DNA of 64,000 nucleotides, from assembly GCF_900114635.1 (NCBI RefSeq), contig NZ_FOTQ01000001.1, forward strand, positions 248,001-312,000, written 5' to 3'. Of this stretch, positions 21,272-42,111 are shown one piece after another (position 1 is the stretch's first letter; every line of letters begins with the position of its first letter). A program made the position numbers and the translations under genes. Below the pieces are notes generated by a model, which was not told where the DNA came from, searched no databases, and worked only from the letters and a program-made list of their open reading frames with translations. This DNA comes from Shimia aestuarii. GTDB taxonomy: Bacteria > Pseudomonadota > Alphaproteobacteria > Rhodobacterales > Rhodobacteraceae.

Positions 21272-21287
21272 TTTCGCCGCAACGCAG
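21272..21287. promoter_or_regulatory. Ethylmalonyl-pathway motif, ccr copy (degenerate)
   Basis: TTTCGCCGCAACGCAG matches 12 of 16 bases of the element found exactly upstream of ecm and mcl2, including all of GCCGCAA and GCAG. It lies 24-39 bases upstream of the ccr start codon. Confidence 0.45.
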
Positions 21288-21404
21288 AATCGCGGCGTCT
21301 GAAACATGGAATATCCACGGCCTTGTAATATTGCAACCACATTTGGGGTGATTTTGTAATTTTATGACCCAGCGGTTGCAGAAAATTCTGCTGCACCTGC
21401 AAAA

Positions 21405-22763
21405 TCACATCAAAAGATGCCGGATCGAGTTCGCATAAAAGGCCAACGCCTGCGTTTGCTCCGGGTTCACCCGGTAACAGCCTTCGCATCTGAGAATCAT
21501 GCGACGTTCTTCAAGCGTGCGCAGCCCGACCTCGACCGCATAGCTCATGTCATCGCGCGGCAGGTGCACATGCGCCTTGTTGAGCTTGATCACCCACGTC
21601 GCGAAAGCGGCCTCGATCGCCGCGCGCGACAGCGGGTTCTCACCATCCTCGATGATCGCCGCGACCAATGGCACCGGGAGCACCGGCACGACCGAATTGA
21701 TCCGGTGCATCAGTTCCTCGGCCAATGGTTCGGCGATGTCGCCGACATGATGCGCGGCAAAGGTTTTGAGCGACAAGGGATGCCCAAAGCTCACCGCCGC
21801 ATAGCCGAACTTGTGATACTTGCCCCGGATTCTCAACCAGATCTGCTTGAGGAAGAAACCCGAGATCACGCTGATACGCGCATGGAACCCACGCCCGTTG
21901 CGCGCCAGCGCCTCAAGCAGGATGCGATCTTCCAGTACCCGATCATAGTTCAGTGCCACCGGCACGAACACCACGTCGCGCGCCTCCGGATCAAACCCGT
22001 CGGTGATGTATTTCAACAATCCCATCTTTGGCTCTTGCGGCGCCCCGTCCAGACTCAGCCGCCCCTCGGGGAACATCGCCTGCGTCACCCCGCCCTGCGT
22101 GGCCAGCCGCACATAGGCCGCCAGCACCTTGCGATAGAGCGTATTGCGTGATTTGCGCCGGATGAAATAGGCGCCCATTGCCTTGATCAGTCGGCTGAGC
22201 GGCCAGACCCGTGCCCATTCCCCCACCGCATAGGCCAGCGCCGAGCGTTCGGCAGCAAGATATGTCACGAGCACATAATCCATGTTGCTGCGATGGTTCA
22301 TCACGAAAACCACCGTCGCGTCCGTCGGGATATGTTTAAGCCCCGACTCATCAAAATGTCCCAGCCGCACCCGGTAAAGCGCCGTGCTCAGGAACCTGGC
22401 AAGCCTGATCGCCACCCCGAAATAGGCCGAGGCCGAAAAGGACGGTACGATCTCCCGCGCATAGCGCTTGGCCTCTTCAAAGGCGACGTTTTCGGGAATG
22501 CCCTGCTCGGCGGCATGATCGGCCACCGCCTGTGCCACGTCGGGCTGATAGATCAGCCGCTGGATCATGTCATAACGCCGCGCCAGCTTGAACGGCTCGA
22601 TCGGACGCTCAAGCCGCGTATTAAGCTGCGCAACGGCTTTCTCCATCCGGCGCCGGAAAAACCAGCGCACCGAGGGGAAAAGCAGGTGACTTGCCGCCGT
22701 GACCGCTGCAAACAGCAGGATCAGGACAAAAAGCCAAAGGGGAAGTTCTACGGTCGAGCCCAT
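21405..22763 (-). CDS. PlsB-like glycerolipid acyltransferase
   Basis: The 452-residue protein has an N-terminal membrane helix and a PlsC/PlsB acyltransferase domain with the NHRSNMD catalytic block (HX4D) near residues 155-162 and the FPEGRLSLDG substrate motif. A long C-terminal extension resembles PlsB-type glycerol-3-phosphate acyltransferases. It probably acylates glycerol-3-phosphate or a related acceptor in the inner membrane. ATG at 22763 is preferred to a TTG five codons upstream. It lies between ccr and ecm, but a metabolic link is not evident. Confidence 0.8.
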   Translation of the reverse strand: MGSTVELPLWLFVLILLFAAVTAASHLLFPSVRWFFRRRMEKAVAQLNTRLERPIEPFKLARRYDMIQRLIYQPDVAQAVADHAAEQGIPENVAFEEAKRYAREIVPSFSASAYFGVAIRLARFLSTALYRVRLGHFDESGLKHIPTDATVVFVMNHRSNMDYVLVTYLAAERSALAYAVGEWARVWPLSRLIKAMGAYFIRRKSRNTLYRKVLAAYVRLATQGGVTQAMFPEGRLSLDGAPQEPKMGLLKYITDGFDPEARDVVFVPVALNYDRVLEDRILLEALARNGRGFHARISVISGFFLKQIWLRIRGKYHKFGYAAVSFGHPLSLKTFAAHHVGDIAEPLAEELMHRINSVVPVLPVPLVAAIIEDGENPLSRAAIEAAFATWVIKLNKAHVHLPRDDMSYAVEVGLRTLEERRMILRCEGCYRVNPEQTQALAFYANSIRHLLM

Positions 22764-22828
22764 GGGCAACTCTTGCAATGCAACGCGGCAAGGTAAATAT
22801 CAAAACGCATGAAAAACAGGCAGCCCCC

Positions 22829-23422
22829 ATGCACGCGCTAACGATCACCCGTGGCTTTTGCGAAACAGAACGGGACACCGTGGCCCGTCTCTATTGGGAT
22901 GCCTTTTCGGGCAAGCTTGGCCCCGTGATGCGCCCGCGCGCGCGCGCGCTCGCGTTCTTCACTTCTGTCCTCGACCCGGAATTCGCCCTGACCGCCCGCG
23001 ACGACACCGGCACTCTGCTGGGGGTTGTCGGTTTCAAGACGGCCTCCGGCGCGCTGGTCGGCGGGTCCTTGCGTGACATGGCCCAGGTCTATGGCTGGGT
23101 CGGTGCGCTTTGGCGCGCGAGCGTGCTCTCCCTGCTGGAACGCGACACCGTTACCGATACCCTTCTTTTGGACGGGATATTTGTCGCCCCCGAGGCGCGC
23201 GGGCGCGGGGCGGGGACCGCGCTGCTCACCGCCATCAAGGCCGAAGCCCGCGACCGAGGTCTCTCCTTCGTCCGGCTGGACGTCATCGATTCCAACCCGC
23301 GCGCCCGTGCCCTTTACGAACGCGAAGGTTTTGTCGCAGGCGAAACCGAGCATATCGGCCCTTTGCGACATATCTTTGGCTTCAGAAGCGCGACGAAGAT
23401 GGTATGTGTGGTCGCAGCATAA
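22829..23422 (+). CDS. GNAT family N-acetyltransferase
   Basis: The 197-residue protein has the acetyl-CoA loop VAPEARGRGAGTALL and the NPRARALYEREGF helix of GNAT enzymes. The acceptor is unknown. ATG at 22829 is chosen; the ribosome-binding site is weak. It is divergent from the acyltransferase gene and lies 94 bases before ecm on the same strand, with the ecm promoter elements beginning at its stop codon. Confidence 0.83.
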   Translation: MHALTITRGFCETERDTVARLYWDAFSGKLGPVMRPRARALAFFTSVLDPEFALTARDDTGTLLGVVGFKTASGALVGGSLRDMAQVYGWVGALWRASVLSLLERDTVTDTLLLDGIFVAPEARGRGAGTALLTAIKAEARDRGLSFVRLDVIDSNPRARALYEREGFVAGETEHIGPLRHIFGFRSATKMVCVVAA

Positions 23423-23436
23423 TTGCCGCAATGCAG
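23421..23436. promoter_or_regulatory. Ethylmalonyl-pathway motif, ecm copy
   Basis: AATTGCCGCAATGCAG contains the perfect palindrome ATTGC-C-GCAAT. It overlaps the GNAT stop codon and ends four bases before the ecm -35 hexamer. The identical 16 bases occur upstream of mcl2 at 42096. Confidence 0.65.
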
Positions 23437-23440
23437 CGAA

Positions 23441-23470
23441 TTGACTTGCACATGATATTTCGCATATCTA
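23441..23470 (+). promoter_or_regulatory. Candidate ecm promoter
   Basis: TTGACT at 23441-23446 is followed by CATATC (16-base spacer) or TATCTA (18-base spacer). The position fits a leader of about 40 bases before the ecm start. Confidence 0.55.
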
Positions 23471-23516
23471 CGCTCTGACGCAACAATATTGCCCAACCGA
23501 TTCATGAGGACGCTCC

Positions 23517-25484
23517 ATGTCGCAGACGCAGAAAGACCGCCCCTGGCTCATCCGAACCTATGCCGGCCATTCCACCGCCAAGGCGTCCAACGCGCTTTAT
23601 CGCTCCAACCTTGAAAAGGGTCAGACCGGTCTTTCGGTGGCTTTCGATCTGCCCACCCAGACCGGCTATGACAGCGATCACGTCCTGTCGCGCGGGGAAG
23701 TGGGCAAGGTGGGCGTGCCCGTCTGCCACCTCGGCGACATGCGCACCCTGTTTGACGAGATTCCGCTCGAACAGATGAACACTTCGATGACGATCAACGC
23801 CACCGCCCCGTGGCTTCTGGCGCTCTACATCGCCGTGGCCGAAGAGCAGGGCGCCGACGTTTCCAAGCTTCAGGGCACCGTCCAGAACGACCTGATCAAG
23901 GAATACCTGTCGCGCGGCACTTATATCTGCCCGCCCGCCCCATCGCTCAAGATGATCGCGGACGTGGCCGAGTATTGCTATACCAACGTGCCGAAATGGA
24001 ACCCGATGAACGTGTGTTCCTATCACCTGCAAGAGGCCGGCGCGACGCCCGAACAGGAACTGGCCTTTGCCCTCGCCACAGCCATCGCCGTGCTGGATGC
24101 GCTGAAACCGCGCGTTCCCGCAGAAGACTTCCCGGCGCTTGCGGGCCGTATCTCGTTCTTCGTCAACGCCGGTATCCGTTTCGTCACCGAAATGTGCAAG
24201 ATGCGCGCCTTCGTCGATCTCTGGGACGAGATCCTCGAAACCCGCTATGGCGTCGACAACCCGAAATTCCGCCGCTTCCGCTATGGTGTTCAGGTCAACT
24301 CGCTCGGCTTGACCGAACAGCAGCCCGAAAACAACGTCTACCGCATCCTGATCGAGATGCTGGCCGTGACCCTGTCGAAAAAGGCCCGCGCCCGCGCGGT
24401 TCAGCTTCCCGCATGGAACGAGGCCCTTGGCCTGCCCCGCCCCTGGGACCAGCAATGGTCGATGCGCATGCAACAGATCATGGCCTTTGAAACCGACCTT
24501 CTGGAATATGACGACCTGTTCGACGGCAATCCCGCCGTTGACCGTAAGGTCGAGGAATTGAAGGAAGGCGCCCGCCACGAGCTCGCCAATCTCGAAAGCA
24601 TGGGCGGCGCCATCGACGCAATCGACTACATGAAGTCCCGCCTTGTCGATTCCAACGCGGACCGCCTGAACCGGATCGAAGCCGGGGAAACCGTGGTCGT
24701 CGGCGTGAACAAGTTTCAGAAGGGCGAAGTTTCGCCGCTGATGACCGGCGATGGCGGCATCATGGTGGTGGACCCCGCCGTGGAACAGGAACAGATCGAC
24801 CGCCTGAACGCATGGCGCGCCGAGCGCGACAGCACCGCCGTCGAAAAGGCGTTGGCCGACCTGCGCGCCGCCGCGCAAGCCGGGCAAAACGTTATGCCCG
24901 CGTCGATCGCCGCCGCCAAGGCCGGTGTCACCACCGGGGAATGGGCCGCGCAGATGCGCGTCATCCATGGCGAATACCGTGGCCCCACCGGCGTGTCCGG
25001 ATCGCCCTCGAACAAGACCGAAGGGCTGGACGATATCCGCACCGCCGTCGACGCGGTCTCGGACAAACTGGGCCGCCGCCTCAAGTTCGTGATCGGCAAA
25101 CCCGGTCTTGACGGTCACTCCAACGGCGCCGAACAGATCGCCTTCCGGGCCCGCGATTGCGGCATGGACATCACCTATGACGGCATCCGCCTCACGCCCG
25201 AGGAAATCGTCGCCAAGGCTCTCGAGGACAAGGCACATGTCGTCGGGCTTTCGATCCTGTCCGGCAGCCATATCCCGCTGGTTGAAGACCTGATGCAACG
25301 TATGCGCGACGAAGGGCTGGGCGATACGCCGGTCATCGTCGGCGGCATTATTCCCGACGAAGACGCCGACCGTCTGCGCGCCATGGGTGTGGCACGGGTT
25401 TATACGCCGAAAGATTTCGAATTGAATACGATCATGATGGATATCGTAACTTTGGCAGATCCCAAGGCAGTAGCCGCCGAATAA
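23517..25484 (+). CDS. ecm: Ethylmalonyl-CoA mutase
   Basis: Adenosylcobalamin-dependent mutase of 655 residues that converts (2R)-ethylmalonyl-CoA to methylsuccinyl-CoA. The TIM-barrel mutase domain starts with AYAGHSTAKASNALYRSNLEKG. The C-terminal B12 domain (from about residue 520) has GLDGHSNG with the cobalt-ligating His, SILSGSHI and VGGIIP. Single-chain form and length fit Ecm/MeaA rather than heterodimeric methylmalonyl-CoA mutase. Its presence beside ccr supports this. A terminator follows. Confidence 0.95.
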   Translation: MSQTQKDRPWLIRTYAGHSTAKASNALYRSNLEKGQTGLSVAFDLPTQTGYDSDHVLSRGEVGKVGVPVCHLGDMRTLFDEIPLEQMNTSMTINATAPWLLALYIAVAEEQGADVSKLQGTVQNDLIKEYLSRGTYICPPAPSLKMIADVAEYCYTNVPKWNPMNVCSYHLQEAGATPEQELAFALATAIAVLDALKPRVPAEDFPALAGRISFFVNAGIRFVTEMCKMRAFVDLWDEILETRYGVDNPKFRRFRYGVQVNSLGLTEQQPENNVYRILIEMLAVTLSKKARARAVQLPAWNEALGLPRPWDQQWSMRMQQIMAFETDLLEYDDLFDGNPAVDRKVEELKEGARHELANLESMGGAIDAIDYMKSRLVDSNADRLNRIEAGETVVVGVNKFQKGEVSPLMTGDGGIMVVDPAVEQEQIDRLNAWRAERDSTAVEKALADLRAAAQAGQNVMPASIAAAKAGVTTGEWAAQMRVIHGEYRGPTGVSGSPSNKTEGLDDIRTAVDAVSDKLGRRLKFVIGKPGLDGHSNGAEQIAFRARDCGMDITYDGIRLTPEEIVAKALEDKAHVVGLSILSGSHIPLVEDLMQRMRDEGLGDTPVIVGGIIPDEDADRLRAMGVARVYTPKDFELNTIMMDIVTLADPKAVAAE

Positions 25485-25516
25485 AGACGCCAAAGCGCAT
25501 CAAACTAATTCTAATT

Positions 25517-25549
25517 GGCTCTATTCGGATACCGAATAGGGCCTTTTTT
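25517..25549 (+). terminator. Terminator after ecm
   Basis: A 12-bp stem with one wobble pair (GGCTCTATTCGG / CCGAATAGGGCC, three-base loop) is followed directly by six T. Confidence 0.92.
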
Positions 25550-25630
25550 CGGACTGACACAAATTGGCCCCTGTATATCGACTCGGCGATATTGGAAAAA
25601 AGCATGAAAGGAACAAGCGAGAGGGAAGCC

Positions 25631-25945
25631 ATGAAACTGGATGGAATGTCCGCCGACGAATTGATCGCGCTCAAAGAGCGGATTGACGCGCAATTGCTCA
25701 AACTCGAAGCTGAACGCAAGGAAAACGCGCTCAAGGCCATCAGGGAAGCTGCCGAAAAACACGGCTACACACTTGATGAAATTGCCTCCATCGCAGGCAA
25801 GCGCAAGGGCGCACTGGCCAAAGGTGTCCCGAAATACGTTCATCCCCAAGACCCCACGACCACCTGGACCGGAAAGGGCCGCAAACCAAAGTGGTTTGAC
25901 GAGGCGCTGGCTGCCGGGATCACACCGGACCAGATGGAACTCTGA
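25631..25945 (+). CDS. H-NS family nucleoid-associated protein
   Basis: The 104-residue protein has an N-terminal coiled-coil oligomerisation region (DELIALKERIDAQLLKLEAERKE would be part of it) and a C-terminal H-NS DNA-binding motif seen as WTGKGRKPKWF. This is the small alphaproteobacterial H-NS type that includes HvrA/Spb, a regulator of photosynthesis and nitrogen genes in Rhodobacter. ATG at 25631 follows GAGGGAAG. It is a single gene after the ecm terminator. The regulon cannot be inferred. Confidence 0.9.
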   Translation: MKLDGMSADELIALKERIDAQLLKLEAERKENALKAIREAAEKHGYTLDEIASIAGKRKGALAKGVPKYVHPQDPTTTWTGKGRKPKWFDEALAAGITPDQMEL

Positions 25946-26000
25946 TCCCCAGCTTGCTCCGACTCGGGGCATGGGGCACAATCAGACCAAGAGGTGCCCC

Positions 26001-26279
26001 ATGTCCTTCATAGCGTTTTCCGTAAAGATAACCGGACGGGTTCAGGGCGTCGCATTTCGCAACTGGACCCAATCCCGCGCCCGGTCGCTGGGTTTGGCAG
26101 GCTGGGTGCAGAATGACCCGACCGGCTCGGTCAGCGCTTTCGTGCAAGGCCCCAAGACCAACGTCGAAACCCTGCTCAACGATCTCTGGTCCGGACCTGC
26201 CGCCGCCTCGGTGCGCGATGTGCAATCCTCCAAGGCCACGCCCGACGACAGCCTGACTGGGTTCTCCATCCTGCGCTGA
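26001..26279 (+). CDS. acyP: Acylphosphatase
   Basis: Small cytoplasmic enzyme of 92 residues that hydrolyses acyl phosphates. The catalytic pair is present: Arg20 in GRVQGVAFR and Asn38 in GWVQNDPTG. The start at 26001 follows a GAGG site. The C-terminal part retains the family GFSILR strand. Spacing to H-NS is 55 bases and to deoD 76 bases. Confidence 0.93.
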
Positions 26280-26355
26280 CGCCCCTTCCCCCTTGCGCAA
26301 AGGCCCGGCTTGCCTTCATCTTGTGGCTCTGAAAACTTTTGCGCGAGGCATCCCC

Positions 26356-27066
26356 ATGACCATCCATATCGGCGCCGAACCGGGCCAGATTGCTGAAACT
26401 GTCCTTTTGCCGGGGGATCCATACCGGGCGAAATGGGCGGCTGAAACGTTTTTAAAAGACGTGGAATGCGTCAACCAGGTGCGCGGGATGCTCGGCTTTA
26501 CGGGAACGTGGAATGGCCATCGCGTCACCATTCACGGGTCGGGCATGGGTATGCCGTCGCTGTCGATCTATGCCAATGAGCTGATCACGTCCTACAATGC
26601 CCAGACCCTGATCCGCATCGGATCCTGTGGGGGCATGCAAAAATCGGTGAACGTACGTGACGTGATCATCGCTATGACCGCCACGTCGATTTCAACCCCC
26701 TCGCGCGGCATCTTCAAGGAAATCAATTTTGCGCCATGCGCCGATTACGGCCTCCTGCGCGCCGCCGCCGACGCCGCCGTGGCGCGCGGCACACCGACCC
26801 ATGTGGGCGGCATCTATTCTTCGGACGTGTTCTATGACGAACGCCCCGACCTCAATGAACAGATGATCCGCCACGGCATCCTTGGAGTCGAAATGGAAGC
26901 AGCCGAACTTTACAACCTCGCCGCCCGCCATGGCCGGCGTGCCTTGGCCGTGCTCACCGTCTCAGACCACCTGATCACACACGAGGCGCTTCCCTCCGAA
27001 GACCGCGAAAAGACCTTTGGAGATATGGTCGAAATCGCGCTAGAGGCCGCTTTCGCCAGCCAGTAA
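26356..27066 (+). CDS. deoD: Purine-nucleoside phosphorylase, DeoD type
   Basis: Hexameric-type phosphorylase of 236 residues that splits purine (deoxy)nucleosides into base and (deoxy)ribose-1-phosphate. The start [21 protein letters not shown], the RIGSCGGMQ phosphate loop, EMEAAELY for ribose binding and TVSDHL with the catalytic Asp are all seen. ATG at 26356 is chosen over an upstream frame extension. It overlaps the 3' end of the converging LysR gene by 27 bases. It could use nucleosides brought in by the BMP transporter. Confidence 0.95.
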
Positions 27067-27921
27067 CCGCAACAATGCCTGCAAGGGCGGCGAAGCTTTG
27101 CCGCCCTTCTTTCCCAATTCCAACCATCGCGGCAATACGGCCCGCGTTTCGAACGGTGCCACCAAGGCGCCGCTCTCGAGATGCCGCGCCACCAACGCGC
27201 CGTGCCCCATCAGCACCCCGGCGCCATGCACCGCCTCTTCCACGGCCAGCGCATAAAGTGAATAGACCGGCCCCTTCACGCCAGCACATGTGCCCGCCGC
27301 AGCCAGCCACGTCTCCCAGTCCCGGTCCCAAACCGCATCCGACAGGCACGCCACGCCAGCCAGATCACCCACATCGCGTAACTGCGCGGCCACCTGCGGT
27401 GCGCAAACCGGAAAGATCTCGTCCTTTTCGATCCGCGTGCCGTCTCCGGCGCCGTAAAACACCGTCAAATCGAACGGCTCGCGCGCCATGTTCGGCGGTT
27501 GCTCCATCGCCGTGACCGATATCTCCACGTCGGGCAACGCCGCCCGGATAGCAGGCAGGCGCGGGGACAGCCAGAGCTGGGCAATCGCGGGCAAGGCCGC
27601 CACGTGCAACCGCCCCGGTGCCGCCGCTTCCCGCAAGGCGCCCACAGCCCCGCCCATGGCATCAAAGGCCGCACTCAACTCGGGCAACACCCGCGCCCCG
27701 ACCCGGCTCAGCACGACGCCCTGCGCGCGCCGCTCGAACAACGCCGCCCCACACCAATCCTCAAGCGTCTTGATCTGCTGCGCCACGGCGCCCGGCGTCA
27801 CGCACAACTCATCCGCCGCGCGGGCAAACCCGCCCAGCCGCGCCGCCGCCTCAAAGGCGCGCAAGGCCGTCATCGGAGGCCCCTTGGGCCGGGGAGGCAG
27901 CACCGCCATCTGATTACCCAT
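27040..27921 (-). CDS. LysR-family transcriptional regulator (GcvA-like)
   Basis: The 293-residue regulator has an N-terminal winged helix ([20 protein letters not shown], then [13 protein letters not shown]) and a periplasmic-binding-like effector domain. The sequence is closest in style to GcvA/AmpR-type LysR proteins. Start at 27921 is likely; 27909 is possible. It is divergent from the SHMT-like gene, the usual layout for a LysR protein that controls its neighbour. A perfect CATAGT-TTT-ACTATG palindrome lies at its start. Confidence 0.88.
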
Positions 27922-27933
27922 AGTTTTACTATG
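27919..27933. promoter_or_regulatory. Palindrome between lysR and the SHMT-like gene
   Basis: CATAGT and ACTATG flank TTT, a perfect 15-base dyad in the 90-base divergent promoter region. It overlaps the proposed lysR start codon, so it could be an autoregulatory operator; the lysR start may then be at 27909. Confidence 0.45.
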
Positions 27934-28011
27934 CCTAATTATCATGAAATCTGGTTTGCGCCCAGCCCGCTTTCACGGTCCAATCCAAAACAAGTCAAAC
28001 CGGAGCCCATC

Positions 28012-29352
28012 ATGTCCCATCTTACTCCCCGCCCCTGGGTGCCTGCCACCTGCGAAACCCTGATACAGCGCATTGCCCAAGACACCGCGCAGGCGAGCAG
28101 CACGGAGATCGCCAATCGTCTGACAGCACTGGCAGATCAGAACCGTCAGATCCACGAACAGGACTGCTTCAACCTCAACCCGGCGACCAATGTCATGAAC
28201 CCGGCCGCCGAGGCCCTGCTCGCCTCCGGCCTCGGCTCGCGCCCGTCGCTGGGCTATCCAGGCGACAAGTACGAAATGGGGCTTGAGGCGATGGAGGAAA
28301 TCGAAGTCATCGCCGCCGAGCTCTGCGCCGAGGTTTTCGAGGCGCAATACGCCGAAATTCGCGTCCCCTCGGGCGCGATTGCCAATCTCTACGGCTTCAT
28401 GTCGTTCTGCAAACCGGGGGATGCCATCATCACGCCGCCGGCCGAGGTCGGCGGCCACGTCACCCACCATGCCGCCGGCTGCGCAGGCCTTTACGGGCTG
28501 GAAAGCCACGCCGCCCCGGTAAATGCAGATGGTTATACTGTCGATCTCGACGGGCTGGCCGCGCTGGCCCGCAAGGTCAAGCCTGCGCTCATCACCATCG
28601 GCGGCTCTCTGAACCTTCTGGAACATCCCGTCGCCGAGATCCGGGCCATTGCCGATGAGGTTGGTGCGCATGTGCTGTTCGACGCGGCCCATCAATGCGG
28701 CATGATCGCGGGCAAGGCATGGAAAAACCCGCTCGCCGAGGGCGCGCATATGATGACGATGAGCACCTACAAGTCGCTCGGCGGCCCACCCTCGGGCCTG
28801 ATCGTCACCAACGAGCCCGAGGTCGCCCGGCGGCTCGATGCCATTGCCTTTCCCGGCATGACTGCCAACTTCGACGCGGCCAAATCCGCAGCCCTTGCCA
28901 TGACCATGCTTGACTGGCGCGATTTCGGGCCCGCCTATGCACAGGCAATGATCGACATGAGCACCGCGCTGGCCGCCGCGCTTCAGGCCGAAGGCATCGC
29001 GTGTTTTGAAACCCATGACGGCCCCACCCGGTCGCATCAATTCGCGGTGCTGGCGGCCCCCTTTGGCGGTGGGCAGACCGCGTCAAAAACCCTGCGCAAG
29101 GCCGGTTTCCTTGCCTGCGGGATCGGCCTGCCGGTAGATGCGGTCACGGGTGACATGAACGGCCTACGTATCGGCACGCCCGAGCTCGTGCGCTGGGGCA
29201 TGGGCGCAGAACACGCCCCCGAGTTGGCCGCACGCATTGCCGCCGCCCTGCGCGCCAACGCGCCCGAAAGCCTTGCCTCCGAAACCGCTGCATGGCGCGC
29301 CACGTTCGATCAGCTGCATTTCATTCACGGCGGGGACGCTCCCGCCCGATGA
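28012..29352 (+). CDS. SHMT-like PLP-dependent aldolase/hydroxymethyltransferase
   Basis: The 446-residue protein has the serine hydroxymethyltransferase fold: SLGYPGDKYEMG corresponds to the glycyl loop, FDAAHQCGMIAG to the PLP-Asp/His segment, and MSTYKSLGGPPSG carries the Schiff-base lysine. It is clearly diverged from housekeeping GlyA, so a special substrate such as alpha-methylserine, threonine or another beta-hydroxy amino acid is likely. The ATG at 28012 has GGAG upstream. Divergent LysR suggests substrate-induced control. Confidence 0.78.
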   Translation: MSHLTPRPWVPATCETLIQRIAQDTAQASSTEIANRLTALADQNRQIHEQDCFNLNPATNVMNPAAEALLASGLGSRPSLGYPGDKYEMGLEAMEEIEVIAAELCAEVFEAQYAEIRVPSGAIANLYGFMSFCKPGDAIITPPAEVGGHVTHHAAGCAGLYGLESHAAPVNADGYTVDLDGLAALARKVKPALITIGGSLNLLEHPVAEIRAIADEVGAHVLFDAAHQCGMIAGKAWKNPLAEGAHMMTMSTYKSLGGPPSGLIVTNEPEVARRLDAIAFPGMTANFDAAKSAALAMTMLDWRDFGPAYAQAMIDMSTALAAALQAEGIACFETHDGPTRSHQFAVLAAPFGGGQTASKTLRKAGFLACGIGLPVDAVTGDMNGLRIGTPELVRWGMGAEHAPELAARIAAALRANAPESLASETAAWRATFDQLHFIHGGDAPAR

Positions 29353-29389
29353 TCGGGCCAGCAAGCTGACCCGGCATCGGTTGGGCCGG

Positions 29390-29419: not shown

Positions 29420-29444
29420 GGCGGCGCGCGTGCGCGCCTTGTTT

Positions 29445-33680: not shown

Positions 33681-33686
33681 CATTCG

Positions 33687-33963: not shown

Positions 33964-34680
33964 TCAATTGGTGATCAGATAGCCCGCCAGCCCAAGCATG
34001 AACCCCGCCACGGCGCCAAAGCTAGGCACCCAATGGTGTTTGAGCGGGACGCGCGGCGCGATGTCCTGAAACAGCAGAAAAAGGATGCCACCCGAAGCGA
34101 ACAGCATAACCGCCCCAAGCATCCCCGGCGCATCGCTGAGAAAGCTAAGACCCACCCACGCCGCCAATGGTCCGACTGGGACCATCAAAAGGAACACAAC
34201 CATGACCCGCGCCCGCGCCAGGCCCGCTCCGGTCATCTCGCGAAAGGCGTTGAACCCCTCGGGCAGGTTCTGCAGGGCGATCATTACCGCCATCAGCAGC
34301 GCCACATCCGCCTTGGCCGTCAACAACGCCCCCAGCGCCAGCGCCTCAGGGACATAGTCCAGCAACATCGCCAGAAACATCGCCGCCTTGCTGCCGCTCT
34401 GATCCAGCGCGCGATCCACAAGCATAAAGGCCAGCCCGCCCAATCCAAACAGCGCCACCGCCCAGCCCGGCGCGAGCATCTCCACGCCTTCAGGCACAAG
34501 CACCAATGCAATCGCCGAGACCAGCGCCCCGCCGCCAAAGGCCATCACGAAATGGCGCAGCGTATTGTCTTCCTGTTCCGGCAGCCAGCCTTCAAACCAC
34601 GTCAAAGCCGCTCCAACCGGGATCGAGGCCCCTGCCAGCGTCGCCAGCAAAAGCGCCTGCATCAAACTGCCCTGCTCCAT
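33964..34680 (-). CDS. ZIP-family metal transporter, divergent
   Basis: The 238-residue membrane protein has about eight hydrophobic segments and ZIP-like motifs, but the usual metal-binding His are replaced: the two core helices read LDYVPEALALG and LQNLPEGFNAF, with Asp and Gln where HNxPEG-type transporters have His. Divalent cation transport is therefore the family expectation, with uncertain specificity. AGGAGG precedes the start at 34680. It follows sdhB on the same strand after a terminator gap, so is separately transcribed. Confidence 0.8.
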   Translation of the reverse strand: MEQGSLMQALLLATLAGASIPVGAALTWFEGWLPEQEDNTLRHFVMAFGGGALVSAIALVLVPEGVEMLAPGWAVALFGLGGLAFMLVDRALDQSGSKAAMFLAMLLDYVPEALALGALLTAKADVALLMAVMIALQNLPEGFNAFREMTGAGLARARVMVVFLLMVPVGPLAAWVGLSFLSDAPGMLGAVMLFASGGILFLLFQDIAPRVPLKHHWVPSFGAVAGFMLGLAGYLITN

Positions 34681-34736
34681 GTCGCCTCCTGCGCCCAAGC
34701 TGGGGGCGGCACCCGGCCCCGGTCAAGCCCTGCGTC

Positions 34737-34770
34737 AAAAGAAAAAGCCCGCTCCAACGGAACGGGCTTT
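34737..34770 (-). terminator. Terminator of the sdhCDAB operon
   Basis: On the minus strand AAAGCCCG and CGGGCTTT enclose a short inner stem, followed by TTCTTTT. It lies 24 bases after the sdhB stop. Confidence 0.88.
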
Positions 34771-34793
34771 CTCGAAAAGTATCAAGCCTGCAC

Positions 34794-35573
34794 TCAGACG
34801 TGGCGCTCGACCAGCATCTTCTTGATCTCGGCAATCGCCTTGGCCGGGTTCAGCCCCTTGGGGCAGGTCTTGGCGCAGTTCATGATCGTGTGGCAGCGAT
34901 AAAGCTTGAACGGGTCTTCCAGCTCGCCCAGACGCTCGCCGGTGGCCTCGTCACGGCTGTCGATGATCCAGCGATAAGCGTGGAGCAACGCGGCCGGGCC
35001 AAGATACCGATCACTGTTCCACCAGTAGCTCGGGCACGAGGTCGAGCAGCTGGCGCACATCACGCATTCATAAAGACCATCAAGCTTCTTGCGGTCTTCA
35101 ATCGACTGCTTCCACTCTTTTGCCGGACGGTTGGTCTTGGTTTCCAGCCACGGCATGATCGACGCGTGCTGTGCATAGAAGTGGTTCAGGTCCGGGATCA
35201 GGTCCTTGACCACCGCCATATGCGGCAGCGGATAGATCTTCACGTCGCCCTTGATCTCGTCCAGCCCGTAGATACAGGCCAGCGTGTTGATCCCGTCGAT
35301 GTTCATCGAGCAGGACCCACAAATGCCTTCCCGGCAAGAGCGGCGGAACGACAGGGTCGGGTCGACCTCGTTCTTGATCTTGATCAGCGCGTCAAGAACC
35401 ATCGGGCCGCACTTGTCCATATCGAGGAAATAGGTGTCGACACGCGGGTTTTTGCCGTCATCCGGGTTCCAGCGATAGATCTGGAACTTGCGGACATTGG
35501 TCGCGCCTTCCGGCTTGGGCCAGGTCTTGCCCGTCGTAATGCGCGAGTTCTTCGGGAGTTTGAATTCAGCCAT
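34794..35573 (-). CDS. sdhB: Succinate dehydrogenase iron-sulphur subunit
   Basis: The 259-residue subunit carries electrons from FAD to quinone through three Fe-S clusters. The 2Fe-2S ligands are in [16 protein letters not shown], and the 4Fe-4S and 3Fe-4S ligands in [15 protein letters not shown] and [17 protein letters not shown]. It is the last gene of sdhCDAB, 12 bases after sdhA, and is followed by a terminator. Confidence 0.98.
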
Positions 35574-35585
35574 GTGTCTGTCTCC

Positions 35586-37391
35586 TTAGAACGTCCGCGC
35601 CTTGGGCGCGATTTTCTTGAGGCTGATGCCACCTTCGTCCTCGGTGGTCAGCGGATCAACGATGACCGGGCGATAGCTCAGATCAACCTTGTTGCCTTCG
35701 ACACGGCTGACGGTATGCACCCGCCAGTTCTTGTCGTCCCGTTCGGCATAGTCCTCGTGTGCGTGTGCACCGCGGCTTTCCTTGCGGGCCTCTGCGCCGT
35801 GGATCGTGGCCAGCGCGTTGGGCATCAGGTTGGTGAGTTCCAGCGTCTCCATCAGGTCCGTGTTCCACACCAGCGAGGTGTCGGTCACGTGCAGGTCATC
35901 AAGCTTGGCCGCAATCGCGGTCATCTTCTCGACGCCTTCCTTCAGGGTCTTGTCGGTCCGGAACACGGCCGCATCCGACTGCATCGTGCGCTGCATTTCC
36001 AGACGCAGTTCCGCGGTCGGCGTGCCGCCCTTGGCATTGCGCAGACCATCAAAGCGGTCAAATGCCTTGTCCACCGACGCCTGGTTCAGAACCGGGTTCG
36101 GCGCATCTGCATCGACAACCTTACCGGCGCGAATGGCCGACGCGCGGCCAAACACCACGAGGTCGATCAGCGAGTTCGAGCCCAGACGGTTCGCGCCGTG
36201 CACCGAGGCACAGCCCGCTTCGCCCACGGCCATCAGGCCCGGCACAACAGCGGTCGGATCGTCCGCGGTCGGGTTCAGCACCTCACCCCAATAGTTGGTC
36301 GGGATACCGCCCATGTTGTAATGCACCGTCGGCAGAACCGGGATCGGCTCCTTGGTGACGTCCACGCCGGCAAAGATCTTGGCGCTTTCCGAGATACCCG
36401 GCAGGCGCTCGGCCAGCGCTTCGGCGGGCAGGTGGTTGAGGTTCAGGTGGATGTGATCGCCATGCTCACCCACACCGCGGCCTTCGCGGATCTCCATGGT
36501 CATGGAGCGGGAAACATAGTCACGCGGCGCAAGGTCCTTGTAGTTGGGCGCATAGCGCTCCATGAACCGTTCGCCTTCGGAGTTGGTCAGATATCCGCCT
36601 TCCCCGCGTGCCCCTTCGGTGATCAGACAGCCCGAGCCGTAGATGCCGGTCGGGTGGAACTGAACAAATTCCATGTCCTGCAGCGGCAGGCCCGCGCGGG
36701 CCACCATGCCGCCACCGTCGCCGGTGCAGGTATGGGCCGAAGTCGCGCTGAAATAGGCACGCCCATAACCGCCCGTGGCCAGAACGACCATCTTGGCGTT
36801 GAAGACATGCATGGTGCCGTCATCCAGCTTCCAGCAGACCACACCCTGACACTGCCCGTCTTCGGACATGATCAGGTCGATCGCGAAGTATTCGATGTAG
36901 AACTCGGCGTTGTTCTTGACCGACTGGCCATAAAGCGTGTGCAGGATCGCGTGGCCGGTCCGGTCGGCGGCGGCACAGGTCCGCTGCACGGGGGGGCCTT
37001 CACCGAACTCGGTGGTGTGGCCGCCGAACGGGCGCTGATAGATCTTGCCCTCTTCGGTGCGCGAAAACGGCACGCCGTAATGCTCCAGCTCGTAAACCGC
37101 CTTGGGCGCTTCACGGGCGAGGTATTCCATCGCGTCCGTGTCACCAAGCCAATCCGACCCCTTGACGGTGTCATACATGTGCCACTGCCAGTTGTCCGGG
37201 CCCATGTTCGACAGCGACGCCGCGATGCCACCCTGTGCCGCCACGGTGTGCGAGCGGGTCGGGAACACCTTGGTGACGCAAGCGGTGCGCAGGCCCTGTT
37301 CGGCCATGCCCAGCGTGGCACGCAGACCGGCACCGCCGGCGCCTACGACAACCACGTCATATTCATGTGTTTCGTATTCGTATTCAGCCAT
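35586..37391 (-). CDS. sdhA: Succinate dehydrogenase flavoprotein subunit
   Basis: The 601-residue catalytic subunit oxidises succinate to fumarate. It has the FAD motif [20 protein letters not shown], the flavinylation His in [11 protein letters not shown] and the active-site segment [12 protein letters not shown]. Length is typical. It lies 11 bases after sdhD. A 982-codon open frame on the opposite strand is a composition shadow of this gene and sdhB. Confidence 0.98.
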
Positions 37392-37402
37392 GTCTCAGGT
37401 CC

Positions 37403-37774
37403 TCACAGCGCGATTTTTGCCAGCGCGAACAAGCCGATGGCGGTGATGCCATAGCTCAGGATGATCACCGACATGATCAGGATTTTCTTGGTCGACTTGC
37501 GAAAGTAGTCCTCGATCATCATCTGTGCACCCTTTGCAAAGTGCTGCATGCCAAAGACCAAGACCAGCGCGGTCACGATCGCCGGGAACGGGCGGCCGAA
37601 CGTGGCCACCACCTCGGCATGACCGCCCCCAAGGGCGCTGCCGAAGATATAGATGAAAACCGGAATGATCAGGGCGAGGCCAACGGCGCTGACCTGCATG
37701 TACCAGTGGTGCTCTGTCCCTGCGTGTGCAGCGCCGCGTCCTTCGGCGCGCTTGCGGTCAGTAAGATAACGCAT
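37403..37774 (-). CDS. sdhD: Succinate dehydrogenase membrane anchor subunit D
   Basis: The 123-residue protein has three membrane helices and a FGMQHFAKGAQMMIEDY segment whose His is the likely haem b ligand. It anchors SdhAB and forms the quinone site with SdhC. It lies 10 bases after sdhC. Confidence 0.93.
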   Translation of the reverse strand: MRYLTDRKRAEGRGAAHAGTEHHWYMQVSAVGLALIIPVFIYIFGSALGGGHAEVVATFGRPFPAIVTALVLVFGMQHFAKGAQMMIEDYFRKSTKKILIMSVIILSYGITAIGLFALAKIAL

Positions 37775-37784
37775 GGTCGCCCCC

Positions 37785-38168
37785 TTATACGATGATCATG
37801 GTCAGAACGGTCAGCACGACCGAACCGATGATACAGGCCCAACCCAGCTTTTCAGCGGTCGGAATATCCAGACCACGACCGGCGTCGTAGATCAGGTGAC
37901 GCAGGCCAGCAAGGTAGTGGTACCAGATCCCCAAAAGCGACAGGCTGAACAGCACATCACCGAAAAATCCGGTTGCAAAGCCGTTTACCGCCGCAAAGTA
38001 ATCCGGTCCCGCAGCCGCCGCTGCCAACCACCAGACAATCAACAAAGCCGTGACAATCATCGCATTCCCAGTGATCCGCGTGAGGATCGAGCTGATCGAC
38101 GTCAGCTGTGGGCGATAGATCGTCAGGTGAGGAGAAAGCGGGCGCTCGACCCTTTTCGCATCAGCCAT
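37785..38168 (-). CDS. sdhC: Succinate dehydrogenase cytochrome b556 subunit
   Basis: The 127-residue subunit has the SdhC signature RPLSPHLTIYRPQ near the N-terminus and three membrane helices, with WYHYLAGLRHLIYD carrying the haem-binding His. It is the first gene of the operon. Its ribosome-binding site is AAGGA, and two GTGATCAC palindromes lie 119-146 bases upstream. Confidence 0.95.
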   Translation of the reverse strand: MADAKRVERPLSPHLTIYRPQLTSISSILTRITGNAMIVTALLIVWWLAAAAAGPDYFAAVNGFATGFFGDVLFSLSLLGIWYHYLAGLRHLIYDAGRGLDIPTAEKLGWACIIGSVVLTVLTMIIV

Positions 38169-38286
38169 TCTGAATCCTTTCAGGTTCCCTTGCGTCCTTT
38201 ACTAAAGGTTTTTTTGTCTCTGTCACTCTGAGCAAAGCCTAAAAGGCGCGGTTTTTTGGCGCAATGGGTCAGATTTTGGGGAATTT

Positions 38287-38314
38287 GTGATCACTGAAAT
38301 TTGTTCGTGATCAC
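38287..38314. promoter_or_regulatory. Paired GTGATCAC operator upstream of sdhC
   Basis: GTGATCAC occurs at 38287-38294 and 38307-38314, centre to centre 20 bp. The same pair, spaced 21 bp, lies at a similar distance upstream of sucC. A third palindrome at 38566 shares 14 bases with the second site, including TTTTC after the palindrome. Confidence 0.65.
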
Positions 38315-38453
38315 ATTTTCGCAGTTCGAGCCCTCATAATGTACCGTCGCCCCCGCCGTCCTGCTTTTTCCGGCGCTGCAGCGAGTCGGGTAAAGCCTGA
38401 ATGTTTGCGCTCTCAAGGGGTTTGGCGACACTTGGCCCACGAATTGCGACCCG

Positions 38454-39125
38454 TCACGGCCCGAGAGACGACATCTGTCGGGCCAGTTCGCGGATCAGTT
38501 TTTGGCGAATGCGCACCGCGTAGTCGAGAAATCCGTTGGCCGTGACAACAAATGCGCCCGCACCTGTGATCACATTTTCATGGAAATACGCTGTCAGGTC
38601 GATCTTGTTGGTTTCGATAACCAGGGCGTTCACGGTCACATCGGCCCGCGCCATGGTAGAGCGAACCATCGCGGGCTCCACCCCCTCATTGGAAAGCCCA
38701 TCCCCCGAGATATCAACGACCTTGCGCAAACAGGTCGGCGCGCTCTCGAAAGCGTCCAGCGCCCGCAACATCGCCTCTCCAACCGCCGTGGAATACTGGT
38801 CCCAGAGGCGCGGCATGGCTTCAACCGCCTGTGCAAGGGTTTCCGCGTCCGCAGGACTGCGTACATGAGTCCATGGCAGTACCAGGTCCTGCCGCCCCTC
38901 TCCGGTCCACTGCATCACTGCAACCGCACTCTGCCCCCGCACCAGCGCTTCGACAACCACGCCGTCCCGCAAACCCGCGGCAAGCCCTTCCATCTGGATC
39001 TTGTATTCGAGGGGGTTGATGCTGCCTGACACGTCCACGGCCAGCAACAATGCCACGTCACAGGCCCGCGCTGGAACCAACGACGCACAAGTCATCATCA
39101 GGGAAAGGGCCAATCGGGCAATCAT
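38454..39125 (-). CDS. DUF1194 von Willebrand A-type exported protein
   Basis: The 223-residue protein has a signal peptide (ASLVPARA before CDVALLL) and a vWA-like fold with the MIDAS motif DVSGS near residues 31-35 and DISGDG, matching the DUF1194 family. The Cys at the mature N-terminus follows ARA rather than a good lipobox. Function is unknown; vWA domains usually bind partners through a divalent metal. It is transcribed towards sdhC, 285 bases away, but the sdh promoter region separates them. Confidence 0.83.
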   Translation of the reverse strand: MIARLALSLMMTCASLVPARACDVALLLAVDVSGSINPLEYKIQMEGLAAGLRDGVVVEALVRGQSAVAVMQWTGEGRQDLVLPWTHVRSPADAETLAQAVEAMPRLWDQYSTAVGEAMLRALDAFESAPTCLRKVVDISGDGLSNEGVEPAMVRSTMARADVTVNALVIETNKIDLTAYFHENVITGAGAFVVTANGFLDYAVRIRQKLIRELARQMSSLGP

Positions 39126-39355
39126 ACTTCACCCTATCGCCGGAACCGCTCCGCGCCTACCGATAACCCCGCGCGCTTCCGATAGGTCGGAACAGTCGAT
39201 CAGCGCATGCCCCGGGTCAGGAAAAAACTCCCATGATAATGCCGTTAGCACCGGCAAACGCGTCCTCGTCGGTGCGGTCAACACGCAACTCGGCCTGCAC
39301 AGGGCAGGCCGAGACCAGGATCAAAGTTGTCAGGATCGCGCGTATTATGCACCGA
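39126..39355. other. 230-base gap with a hairpin and a possible tiny frame
   Basis: A 10-bp perfect stem (CTCGGCCTGC / GCAGGCCGAG, loop ACAGG) lies at 39289-39313, without a T run. A minus-strand frame through it would encode a short exported peptide (LVSACPVQAELRVDR...), but it has no ATG or GTG start in frame, so it is not called as a gene. Confidence 0.4.
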
Positions 39356-40387
39356 TCAGACCGGCATCAACGCCCAGTAGTCAAGGTCGAGCAGCACCTC
39401 GGGCAAGTACTTCCCGTCTTCGCCACGCAGCGCAAACGGCGCTCCGCCCTTGGTCGCCACCAGCCGCAGCCGAATCGCGCCCACACCGGGCACATCGGTC
39501 TCGGCCTTGTCGAGCACTTCAGACCAAGCTTTTACGGTCAACCCAGAGAACGCCGGGTTCGCATGGGCGCCACCGTTCAGACCCACGATCATCTGTGCAT
39601 TGGCCAGCCCGTTGAAGCTCAGCGCGCGCGCCAGCGAAATGATATGCCCACCATAGATCAGGCGCTGCCCGTCCGGGCGGAACGTGGCGTCGAAATGCAC
39701 CTTGGCCGTGTTCTGCCAAAGCCGGGTGGCCATCATGTGTTCAGCTTCTTCCAGCGTCACACCGTCGACATGGTCAATGGTTTCGCCAATCTCGTAATCA
39801 CCCCAACGATGCGCCTCACCCGCCAGCGTGAAGTCATAGTTCGAGAAATCCAGCCCCTCGGGGATCACCAGATCCTTGGCGTCGATCACCTTGGAAAGCT
39901 CGGGCACCACGGCCTCGGGCGCGGGCGCATCCACATCGCGTTTGCGCACCATCACCCAGCGGACATACTCCATCACGACCTCGTCGCGCTGGTTCATGCC
40001 ACGGGTCCGCACGTAAACCACCCCGGTCTTGCCGTTCGAATTCTGCTTGAGACCAATCACTTCCGAGGTGGAGCGCAGCGTGTCGCCCTCATAAACCGGC
40101 TTGAGCCAGCGCCCCTCGGCATAACCAAGGTTTGCCACCGCGTTCAGCGACACATCCGGTACGGTTTTACCAAAGACCACGTGGAACGCCGCCAGATCGT
40201 CGATCGGCGATTTCGGCAGGCCCGAAGCCTGCGCGAATGCGTCCGACGAATACAGCGCGTGGCGCGCCGGATAGAGTGCGTGGTACAGCGCTCGCTCGCC
40301 ACCCGACACGGTACGCGGCACCGCATGCTCGATCACCTGCCCCAGCGTGTAGTCTTCGAAAAATCGACCCGGATTGGTCTTGGCCAT
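39356..40387 (-). CDS. mch: Mesaconyl-CoA hydratase (MaoC family)
   Basis: The 343-residue protein has two MaoC-type hot-dog halves. It matches the dedicated mesaconyl-CoA hydratase of the ethylmalonyl-CoA pathway, which makes beta-methylmalyl-CoA. Visible family blocks are NPGRFFEDYTLGQVIEHAVPR at the start (the first half of it), SPIDDLAAFHVVFGKTV, and YGGHIISLARALSFNGLANA. Linkage with the malyl-CoA thioesterase gene mcl2 upstream supports the call. It is the last gene of a four-gene operon. Confidence 0.92.
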   Translation of the reverse strand: MAKTNPGRFFEDYTLGQVIEHAVPRTVSGGERALYHALYPARHALYSSDAFAQASGLPKSPIDDLAAFHVVFGKTVPDVSLNAVANLGYAEGRWLKPVYEGDTLRSTSEVIGLKQNSNGKTGVVYVRTRGMNQRDEVVMEYVRWVMVRKRDVDAPAPEAVVPELSKVIDAKDLVIPEGLDFSNYDFTLAGEAHRWGDYEIGETIDHVDGVTLEEAEHMMATRLWQNTAKVHFDATFRPDGQRLIYGGHIISLARALSFNGLANAQMIVGLNGGAHANPAFSGLTVKAWSEVLDKAETDVPGVGAIRLRLVATKGGAPFALRGEDGKYLPEVLLDLDYWALMPV

Positions 40388-40591
40388 CTAGTGCTCTCCT
40401 AGTTTCGTGTCGGGGGTATAGGTGCCCTCGACCTCCTTGATGACTGCCTGCCCACAGCGCATGATGCCGGTGGCCTGACAGAATGTCTGCGTGGGGGAGC
40501 CATAAAGCTCCCACCCCTTGTTCAACGCATCCGTCACCTTGTGACAGAAGGCCGATGTGTCCTCTTCGGACAGAAAACGATACAGCTTCAT
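40388..40591 (-). CDS. DUF1737 small protein
   Basis: The 67-residue protein (MKLYRFLSEEDTSAFCHKV start, then ALNKGWELYGSPTQTF) matches the DUF1737 family, small single-domain proteins of unknown function. Its stop codon directly abuts the mch start, and it begins five bases after the NnrU-like gene, so it is part of the mcl2-nnrU-mch operon. Confidence 0.82.
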   Translation of the reverse strand: MKLYRFLSEEDTSAFCHKVTDALNKGWELYGSPTQTFCQATGIMRCGQAVIKEVEGTYTPDTKLGEH

Positions 40592-40596
40592 CTCAT

Positions 40597-41145
40597 TCAC
40601 CCCGGGAACGGCCAGTAGCCCAGCCAGCCATGGATCCACCCGATCACCGCCATCAGCACCAGCGACGCGACAAGGAACATGCCGTCCTTGGCAATCGTGC
40701 CGCGCTCGGTCGGCTGCCACGACCCTTCGGCCTTGTTGATCACCACAACCTCGGCCAGCGCCCAGAGGAACAGCCCGCCAAACAGGATCAGCGACGCCAG
40801 ATCACCGTTGACCAGCAGATGCGCAAAGGCCCAGGCCCGAAAGCCCGCAAGCTGCGGGTGGCGCATATTGTGGAGCAGCTTGCCCTTGCGTGGTGCCGGG
40901 CTCATCATGAAGATGGCGATCAACACCAAGAGGTTGTTGAGATGCCATGTCCACATCGGCGGGTACCAAAGGTCCACGGTCGGCGCCATGCGATAGCCAA
41001 AGATCATGGCGATCACACCGGCAAAGATGATCAGCGCCGAAACACTCCGCGCGCGATCTCCCATCCGGGCATGCGCATCCGGCATTGCCCGCTTCCAGAA
41101 ATGCCCTGCCACCCATAGCAGGACACCCAAGATCAAAAGTACCAT
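40597..41145 (-). CDS. NnrU family membrane protein
   Basis: The 182-residue protein has about five membrane helices with the HLNNLLVLIAIFMM and MRHPQLAGFRAWAFAHLL blocks of the NnrU family. NnrU was named from nitric-oxide-linked gene clusters of denitrifiers, but many members lie elsewhere and the activity is unknown. Here it sits between mcl2 and mch, an arrangement I recall for other Rhodobacterales, with no denitrification gene in view. Confidence 0.85.
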   Translation of the reverse strand: MVLLILGVLLWVAGHFWKRAMPDAHARMGDRARSVSALIIFAGVIAMIFGYRMAPTVDLWYPPMWTWHLNNLLVLIAIFMMSPAPRKGKLLHNMRHPQLAGFRAWAFAHLLVNGDLASLILFGGLFLWALAEVVVINKAEGSWQPTERGTIAKDGMFLVASLVLMAVIGWIHGWLGYWPFPG

Positions 41146-41178
41146 GTCAAACTCCCCTGTTTGCTTCAGGGAACAGGC

Positions 41179-42033
41179 TTACGACGAAAGCGCCGCGATT
41201 GCACTTGCCTTTGCCAGGATTTCACGCGCCGTCACGACGTGCAGGTTCTCGACGATCTTGCCGTCCACCACGGCCACGCCCTGGCCGTTGGCCTCGACCT
41301 CTTCAAAGGCCGCGATCTGGCGCTCGGCCAGATCGATTTCCGCCTCGCTCGGGGCATAGGCTTCGTTGGCCACATCCACCTGCGCCGGATGGATCAGCGT
41401 CTTGCCGTCAAATCCCATGTCACGGCCCTGATCGCATTCCACCTTCAGACCCTCGGCATCCTTGAATGCGTTATAAACGCCATCCACGATGATCACGCCC
41501 TCGGCCTTGGCCGCCAAAAGGCACAGGCCCAGCCCAGCCATCATCGGCAGACGGTCAGCGCGGAACCGGGTCTGAAGCTCTTTGGCAAGGTCATTGGTCC
41601 CCATCACCATGCCCTTGAGCTGCGGATACGCGGCAATCTCGGTCGCATTCAGCATGCCGCGCGGCGTCTCCATCATCGCCCAGAGCGGTTTGTCACCGAC
41701 CAGCGCGGCCAGCGCATCAAGCTGTGCAGCACTTTCCACCTTGGGCAGCAGAACCGCATCACAGTCCATCTCGGCGGCCGCCTTGGCGTCGGCCTCACCC
41801 CATTGCGTGTCGAGCCCGTTGATCCGCACGATCCGCACCCGGTCGCCATAGCCACCCGCCGCAAGTGCTACCTTCAGCGTGTCGCGCGCGTTTTCCTTTT
41901 CCTCGACCGCCACGGCGTCTTCGAGGTCAAAGATGATCGCGTCCACCGGCAAGGTCCGCGCCTTTTCGAGCGCCCGATCCTTGGAACCGGGAATGTAGAG
42001 TACCGAACGATAGGGGCGTGCGCGCTGATCCAT
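41179..42033 (-). CDS. mcl2: (3S)-Malyl-CoA thioesterase, CitE-like
   Basis: The 284-residue protein is a HpcH/HpaI-CitE family member: RSVLYIPGSKDRALEKA start, FDLEDAVA metal site, LLPKVES and MMETPRG. In Rhodobacter sphaeroides the short paralogue Mcl2 hydrolyses (3S)-malyl-CoA to malate at the end of the ethylmalonyl-CoA pathway, while the longer Mcl1 is the lyase. Length and linkage to mch favour Mcl2. Start at 42033 follows GGAGAG. The 16-base motif shared with ecm lies 63-78 bases upstream. Confidence 0.87.
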   Translation of the reverse strand: MDQRARPYRSVLYIPGSKDRALEKARTLPVDAIIFDLEDAVAVEEKENARDTLKVALAAGGYGDRVRIVRINGLDTQWGEADAKAAAEMDCDAVLLPKVESAAQLDALAALVGDKPLWAMMETPRGMLNATEIAAYPQLKGMVMGTNDLAKELQTRFRADRLPMMAGLGLCLLAAKAEGVIIVDGVYNAFKDAEGLKVECDQGRDMGFDGKTLIHPAQVDVANEAYAPSEAEIDLAERQIAAFEEVEANGQGVAVVDGKIVENLHVVTAREILAKASAIAALSS

Positions 42034-42068
42034 GAGTCTCTCCGTAATAAAGTTGCGCGAAACTGCGC

Positions 42069-42088
42069 ATTTTTTCCCAAATACTTCA
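42069..42088 (-). repeat. Dispersed GTATTTTTGG intergenic motif, copy 2
   Basis: Read on the minus strand: GAAGTATTTGGGAAAAAATG. It differs from the other copies in the central T run but keeps the GTATTT and GG-AAAA blocks. It lies between mcl2 and its 16-base upstream element. Confidence 0.4.
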
Positions 42089-42095
42089 AGATCGA

Positions 42096-42111
42096 AATTG
42101 CCGCAATGCAG
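42096..42111. promoter_or_regulatory. Ethylmalonyl-pathway motif, mcl2 copy
   Basis: AATTGCCGCAATGCAG, identical over 16 bases to the element upstream of ecm. It lies in the divergent region between mcl2 and the exported 105-residue protein gene, 63-78 bases upstream of mcl2. Confidence 0.65.

Follow-up and report, generated by a model that had tools for sequence, protein, structure and literature searches.

Predicted PhaR operators upstream of ethylmalonyl-CoA pathway genes in Shimia aestuarii and related Rhodobacteraceae

PhaR is a regulator that binds polyhydroxybutyrate (PHB); in other bacteria it is known to repress phasin genes and to be titrated by PHB (PMC12542648). Its site is given as CTGCNNNGCAG in Rhodobacter sphaeroides (PMC12542648), as a motif with the core YGCRNYGCR for AniA/PhaR of Sinorhizobium meliloti (PMC12542648), and as NGCN(3)GC[GA]N(3) in Bradyrhizobium diazoefficiens (PMC10888616). 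We analyzed 64,000 nucleotides of Shimia aestuarii (assembly GCF_900114635.1, contig NZ_FOTQ01000001.1, positions 248,001 to 312,000; "the window," with coordinates counted from its first letter), in which a repeated element precedes three genes of the ethylmalonyl-CoA (EMC) pathway: ccr, encoding crotonyl-CoA carboxylase/reductase (19959 to 21248, minus strand); ecm, encoding ethylmalonyl-CoA mutase (23517 to 25484, plus strand); and mcl2, encoding a CitE-like lyase (41179 to 42033, minus strand). Judging from the sequence, we consider it likely that this element is the operator of PhaR (PhaR box), at which the regulator would repress transcription until PHB titrates it away. Because the element matches the PhaR site, the EMC pathway is probably tuned to PHB content. 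The regulator and its operator are already known; what would be new is the target set of ccr, ecm, and mcl2.

The initial annotation had reported a 16-mer, AATTGCCGCAATGCAG, shared exactly by the ecm and mcl2 promoters, and this is borne out at 23421 to 23436 (ecm) and 42096 to 42111 (mcl2). Direct reading confirmed its relative before ccr (TTTCGCCGCAACGCAG at 21272, 12 of 16 letters matching), and the start codons do lie as far off as had been stated (about 80 bases for ecm, 63 for mcl2, and 24 for ccr). The accompanying argument that such a repeat is unlikely to arise by chance also stands, since the genome (4,226,671 bases, 27 contigs) contains just these two exact copies, both in the EMC pathway. 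With two mismatches allowed, AATTGCCGCAATGCAG matches 10 places in the genome and a reversed control pattern none; with three mismatches it has 2 matches in the window, while shuffles average 1.1 and 30 of 100 shuffles give at least 2. Because matches of the latter kind are not unusual, what is remarkable is the exactness of the copies and their gene context. The palindrome singled out at that stage, ATTGC-C-GCAAT, is present at 23422 to 23432 and 42097 to 42107 but is not what relatives keep: it was rejected upon finding it upstream of ecm in 1 of 81 regions, of ccr in 0 of 74, and of mcl2 in 2 of 30, with the window's own copies counted. The conserved palindrome, CYGC-RNY-GCRG, lies four bases to the right and reads CCGC-AAT-GCAG at 23426 to 23436 (ecm) and 42101 to 42111 (mcl2), and CCGC-AAC-GCAG at 21277 to 21287 (ccr); these are the predicted PhaR boxes (CCGCAATGCAG at ecm and mcl2, CCGCAACGCAG at ccr), to which, like the other palindromes described here, no strand is assigned. 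An operator common to EMC genes is thus strongly supported by conservation at the three promoters, although the wrong palindrome had been picked, and the regulators that had been named as candidates (CcrR or a PccR-type protein) most likely give way to PhaR.

Conservation was scored within 200 bp upstream of each gene, using a strict box (CYGCRNYGCRG) and a loose core (YGCRNYGCR). The ecm set comprised the window plus the best 80 of 592 relatives with Ecm from a contig scan (81 regions); named records among the 80 are Roseobacter-group Rhodobacteraceae, and some drafts are labeled Alphaproteobacteria only. The ccr set comprised the 74 regions with a Ccr match inside the fetched stretch, and the mcl2 set the best 30 loci, mcl2 having a match in 51 of 51 genomes searched. 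The strict box stands upstream of ecm in 80/81 regions, ccr in 73/74, and mcl2 in 29/30 (loose core, 30/30), against 131 of 5,179 background windows of 200 bp from the 80 loci (2.5%) and at most 4 in 30 dinucleotide shuffles per set. The aligned consensus is GCCGCaacGCaGCGAATTGACA at ecm and, on the gene strand, GCGATTCTGCattGCGGCa at ccr, where it sits between conserved TATtcc and AGGAGG. The scan of relatives that had been suggested alongside the initial annotation thus finds the element kept at the orthologous ccr, ecm, and mcl2 promoters.

The box resembles that of R. sphaeroides in core spacing and letters: CCGCAATGCAG and CCGCAACGCAG both fit YGCRNYGCR and are one letter off CTGCNNNGCAG (CCGC), and the same kind of box is found at phaP in this genome. 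The EMC boxes differ from it in having mostly CCGC on one arm and in their targets, which are acetate-assimilation genes rather than PHB granule genes. With the S. meliloti AniA/PhaR regulon (PMC12542648) they share the YGCRNYGCR core, a panC-panB target, and, in the site SMb20609 (GTTTTCCGCAATGCAGCAATT, binding graded Efficient in Table 3 of that paper), 12 letters in common with the ecm site (CCGCAATGCAGC, found at a single place in the window, 23426). The open passages of that paper name no EMC gene, and the word "ethylmalonyl" is absent from its main text.

The genome itself encodes PhaR (a single PF07879 match of 98.8 bits, above the cutoff), with phaP, phaC, and phaZ as neighbors of phaR; no PhaR relatives were found among solved structures at E 0.1. 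Among 31 phaR loci read (our own and 30 of 49 listed matches), the phasin gene phaP was found in 26, every one of which has the strict box upstream of phaP in at least two copies (26/26). Upstream of phaR, the strict box is present in 12/31 loci and the loose core in 23/31. A PhaR matrix was trained on the phaP boxes alone and used to score every 19-mer of the window's plus strand; it ranked the ecm box first (18.5), the mcl2 box second (17.0), an intergenic site at 4436 third (16.6), and the ccr box fourth (14.8), with the next site at 8.0. Across relatives, the conserved box is the top-scoring site in 78/81 ecm, 73/74 ccr, and 29/30 mcl2 regions. A degenerate second copy of the box at mcl2, seen by direct reading (CCGTCTCGCAG, 42121 to 42131), is ninth in the matrix list for the window.

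Genomes without PhaR may point the same way. Of the 80 relatives, 50 were searched for PhaR (those with weaker motifs entered first) and 48 had it; among family genomes with a completeness of at least 95%, it was present in 290 of 296. One draft lacking it, L078 (G007), has no PhaC match either and provides the sole ecm region and the sole ccr region without a strict box; it retains CGAATTGACA, the conserved stretch beside the ecm box, and the second palindrome described below with one mismatch, so that its promoter hexamers stay as the box decays. G053, which is a single contig and 100% complete, likewise lacks PhaR and a PhaC match. Not even the loose box is present at its ecm, and at ccr the box is degraded; ccr still has its -35, its -10, and AAAATTACAAAA. 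Overall, among genomes with Ecm, 2 of the 3 that are PhaR-less have lost the box at ecm, compared with 1 of the 70 that carry PhaR (Fisher P = 0.003, with phylogeny ignored and strict and loose counts mixed). The other five of the six PhaR-less family genomes (G126, G161, G172, G280, and G307) gave neither an Ecm match at E 1e-200 nor a PhaC match, and the storage polymer and the EMC pathway may be lost together there; no Ecm match at that threshold was found in 2 of 24 PhaR-bearing genomes either.

Because phasin repression and the titration of PhaR by PHB are known elsewhere, the simplest model is repression that PHB relieves. Without PHB, free PhaR would occupy the boxes at ccr, ecm, and mcl2 and keep transcription low, as at phasin genes. 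An excess of acetyl-CoA would lead to PHB granules, onto which PhaR would be titrated; phasin and EMC genes would then be derepressed jointly, and C4 acyl-CoA would be carried on to malate and succinyl-CoA. PhaR binding, the regulatory sign, and PHB dependence at the three genes are what we infer here. The ccr box would lie about 15 to 25 bases downstream of the predicted transcription start, just past the -10, and the mcl2 box is upstream of a conserved CTTGAA. In R. sphaeroides, loss of phaC1 impairs growth on acetate (PMC13357446), and a phaC1 phaR deletion strain yields up to 40% more hydrogen from acetate (PMC13063691), according to the passages available from these papers; both observations fit repression by free PhaR. 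A further R. sphaeroides study links PhaR to acetate, as far as its title and the passages citing it indicate (doi 10.1128/aem.00507-22). Among the titles, opening parts of abstracts, and open passages covered, none states that PhaR controls ccr, ecm, or mcl2. If true, the proposed control would link PHB storage directly to the route by which many marine and photosynthetic alphaproteobacteria mainly assimilate acetate, and it would account for the poor acetate growth of mutants unable to make PHB.

Several observations weigh against this reading. In a set of more distant family members, the strict box is present in only 5/23 ecm and 3/22 ccr regions (G053 counted), and outside the family it is present in 1/27 ecm regions (the best-scoring 27 read, from an Ecm match in 44 of 140 genomes searched). 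The loose core reaches further: in PhaR-bearing distant family genomes it occurs within 250 bp of ecm in 21/22, often at a different distance, and at ccr in 18/21 (both raw counts), and outside the family it is found at ecm in 27/27 regions, compared with a shuffle average of 5.0 (maximum, 10) and 82 of 482 other windows of those loci. Box and regulator also part company in individual genomes. L037 (G035) retains both boxes and gave no match to PhaR, PhaC, or PhaB, though because it is a draft its assembly may simply not include these genes; the loose box is absent at ecm in G219, which has PhaR, and at ccr in three genomes with PhaR, and L149 (G006), the one mcl2 exception, has PhaR and no strict box at mcl2. 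From the literature, a phaC knockout of Methylobacterium extorquens reportedly raises EMC-derived acids (PMC6520949), which is not as repression by free PhaR predicts, and the main text of a phaR transcriptome sequencing (RNA-seq) paper makes no mention of ccr or ecm (PMC6520949).

Finally, the position of the ecm box, which abuts the upstream side of the -35, would suit an activator too. PhaR might therefore act through the same boxes with another sign, activating ecm and mcl2 and repressing ccr alone, or differing by promoter; there is precedent in Ralstonia eutropha, where passages of one report have PhaR repressing phaP1 and activating phaP3 (PMC12849132). We regard this as unlikely, given that the S. 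meliloti motif lies mostly at PhaR-repressed genes and at only seven activated ones (PMC12542648), and that the acetate defect of phaC1 mutants fits repression.

Still less probable, in our judgment, is a different regulator with a similar palindrome, such as an ScfR-family protein (RamB or PccR) or a CcrR-like TetR protein, even though ScfR-family regulators control acetate or propionate genes in relatives (PMC10370305); the loss of the box along with PhaR argues against it. RamB of Paracoccus denitrificans is comparable in that it ties acetate-assimilation genes to EMC metabolites, but it differs in acting as an activator of glyoxylate-cycle genes through two unlike boxes 18 bp apart (PMC10370305). 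Its class 2 operator was rejected as a candidate here: the boxes TGTGACAAACCTTACAG and TGACAATACTGACTG (from oligonucleotide 46 of PMC10370305; the split into boxes is ours) are, compared by eye, unlike the ecm, mcl2, and ccr promoters. The PccR operator was rejected as well, TTTGCAA/TTGCAAA occurring in the window only in the regions of 37533, 37973, and 63386 and at none of the three promoters. PccR boxes are of the TTTGCAAA type, with TTTGCAA-like sequence, and CcrR of Methylobacterium, a TetR-type protein with a palindrome upstream of ccr, regulates that gene. The reading of the element as a repeat due to chance or as an ordinary feature of promoters has next to nothing in its favor beyond the unremarkable number of three-mismatch matches in the window, given the two exact copies confined to the EMC pathway, box conservation far above background, and the L078 promoters, where hexamers persist and the box does not.

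Downstream of the ecm -10, relatives conserve a second palindrome, M2 (CGYAAYNWNRTTRCG), which accompanies the PhaR box at several of these promoters. In the window it reads CGCAACAATATTGC at ecm (23479 to 23492) and CGTAATAAAGTTGCG at mcl2 (42043 to 42057). With at most one mismatch it is found at ecm in 43/81 regions (shuffles, 1/81) and at mcl2 in 14/30 (shuffles, 0/30). At ccr a diverged, position-conserved sequence, GGTcATAAAATTAC, has best matches of two to four mismatches (three in 63/74, four in G053); the stretch concerned, GGTcATAAAATTACAAAA, lies upstream of the ccr -35 (21356 to 21369, minus strand; GGTCATAAAATTAC in the window, with three mismatches to M2), is among the best-conserved parts of the ccr promoter, and is possibly a diverged M2. 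In L078 its version is perfectly palindromic, GGTAATAAAATTACC. The order of the two elements is PhaR box upstream and M2 downstream at ecm and mcl2, and the reverse at ccr.

In the whole genome, the pattern CGYAAYNWNRTTRC has 14 matches at 11 places (reversed control, 7 matches). Six of these places precede ecm, mcl2, phaB, a MaoC-type hydratase gene, coaD, and mcl1 (those outside the window being L232, L234, L224, and L235), and the remaining five look intragenic or unclear. At phaB, M2 is present with at most one mismatch in 26/30 loci, where shuffles have two or more mismatches, and it is kept in both PhaR-less genomes with decayed boxes (0 and 1 mismatches); because it persists there, its reader is probably not PhaR. 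As a class-wide feature M2 was rejected: beyond the family, its matches at ecm are no better than those of shuffles. We give an even chance to the wider proposal that two keys control the EMC pathway in Rhodobacteraceae, namely PHB-titrated PhaR on CYGC-RNY-GCRG and a second regulator on CGYAAYNWNRTTRCG at ecm, mcl1, mcl2, phaB, coaD, the MaoC-type hydratase gene, and perhaps ccr, with the PHB granule serving as the gauge that opens the competing anaplerotic route. The work supplies defined candidate operators, with M2 as bait for a missing EMC regulator.

Other box sites in this genome were located with the pattern YGCYGCRAYGCAG, which has 19 places (reversed control, 1). Six of them lie ahead of genes, namely ccr, ecm, mcl2, panC, bktB, and the L103 frame; the other 13 fall within open frames 100 amino acids or longer, some of which (L091, L107) may not be genes. 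The panC box (L104) is followed by panC and then panB, as in the S. meliloti PhaR target operon, the bktB box lies between bktB and a divergent helix-turn-helix-cupin regulator (L109, about 1440 to 1520), and the L103 box stands before a frame that combines MarR-like with sulfate adenylyltransferase parts. A box, CTGCGGCGCGG, is also present upstream of mcl1, one of the genes at which the initial annotation had proposed to look; the gene is probably mcl1, judging from its N terminus and a PF03328 match. The box upstream of phaA (CCGCATTGCGG), a gene that had not been proposed there, is partly conserved (loose 12/26, strict 8, several phaA stretches being incomplete), as is that of phaB (loose 12/30, strict 8).

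Promoter elements around the boxes are predicted from conservation and spacing. At ccr, whose product matches TIGR01751 above the cutoff, the putative -10 is TATTCC (21308 to 21313, minus strand; aTATtcc kept in the 74-region alignment) and the putative -35 is TTGCAA (21331 to 21336, minus strand; gTTGCA conserved), with a 17-base spacer. At ecm, the predicted -35 is TTGACT (23441 to 23446, plus strand; consensus TTGACA, within conserved CGAATTGACA) and the predicted -10, weakly conserved, is ATATCT (23464 to 23469, plus strand), again with a 17-base spacer. For the names ecm and mcl2 we follow the labels of the initial annotation and the gene context, together with methylmalonyl-CoA-mutase-type models and relatives for ecm and a citE model below the cutoff for mcl2. 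As first gene of its unit, mcl2 is followed by nnrU (40597 to 41145; NnrU, PF07298). The mcl2 promoter region (about 42059 to 42090, minus strand) has the conserved CTTGAA and then AAATGccCcttT, an arrangement reminiscent of a heat shock sigma factor promoter more than of a housekeeping one. Directly behind ccr lies a gene for a LuxR-type regulator with an autoinducer-binding domain (18860 to 19687, minus strand). The intergenic site CTTTCCGCACCGCGGCACA (4436 to 4454), the third-best PhaR-matrix match in the window, is upstream of a frame that by eye resembles a branched-chain aminotransferase.

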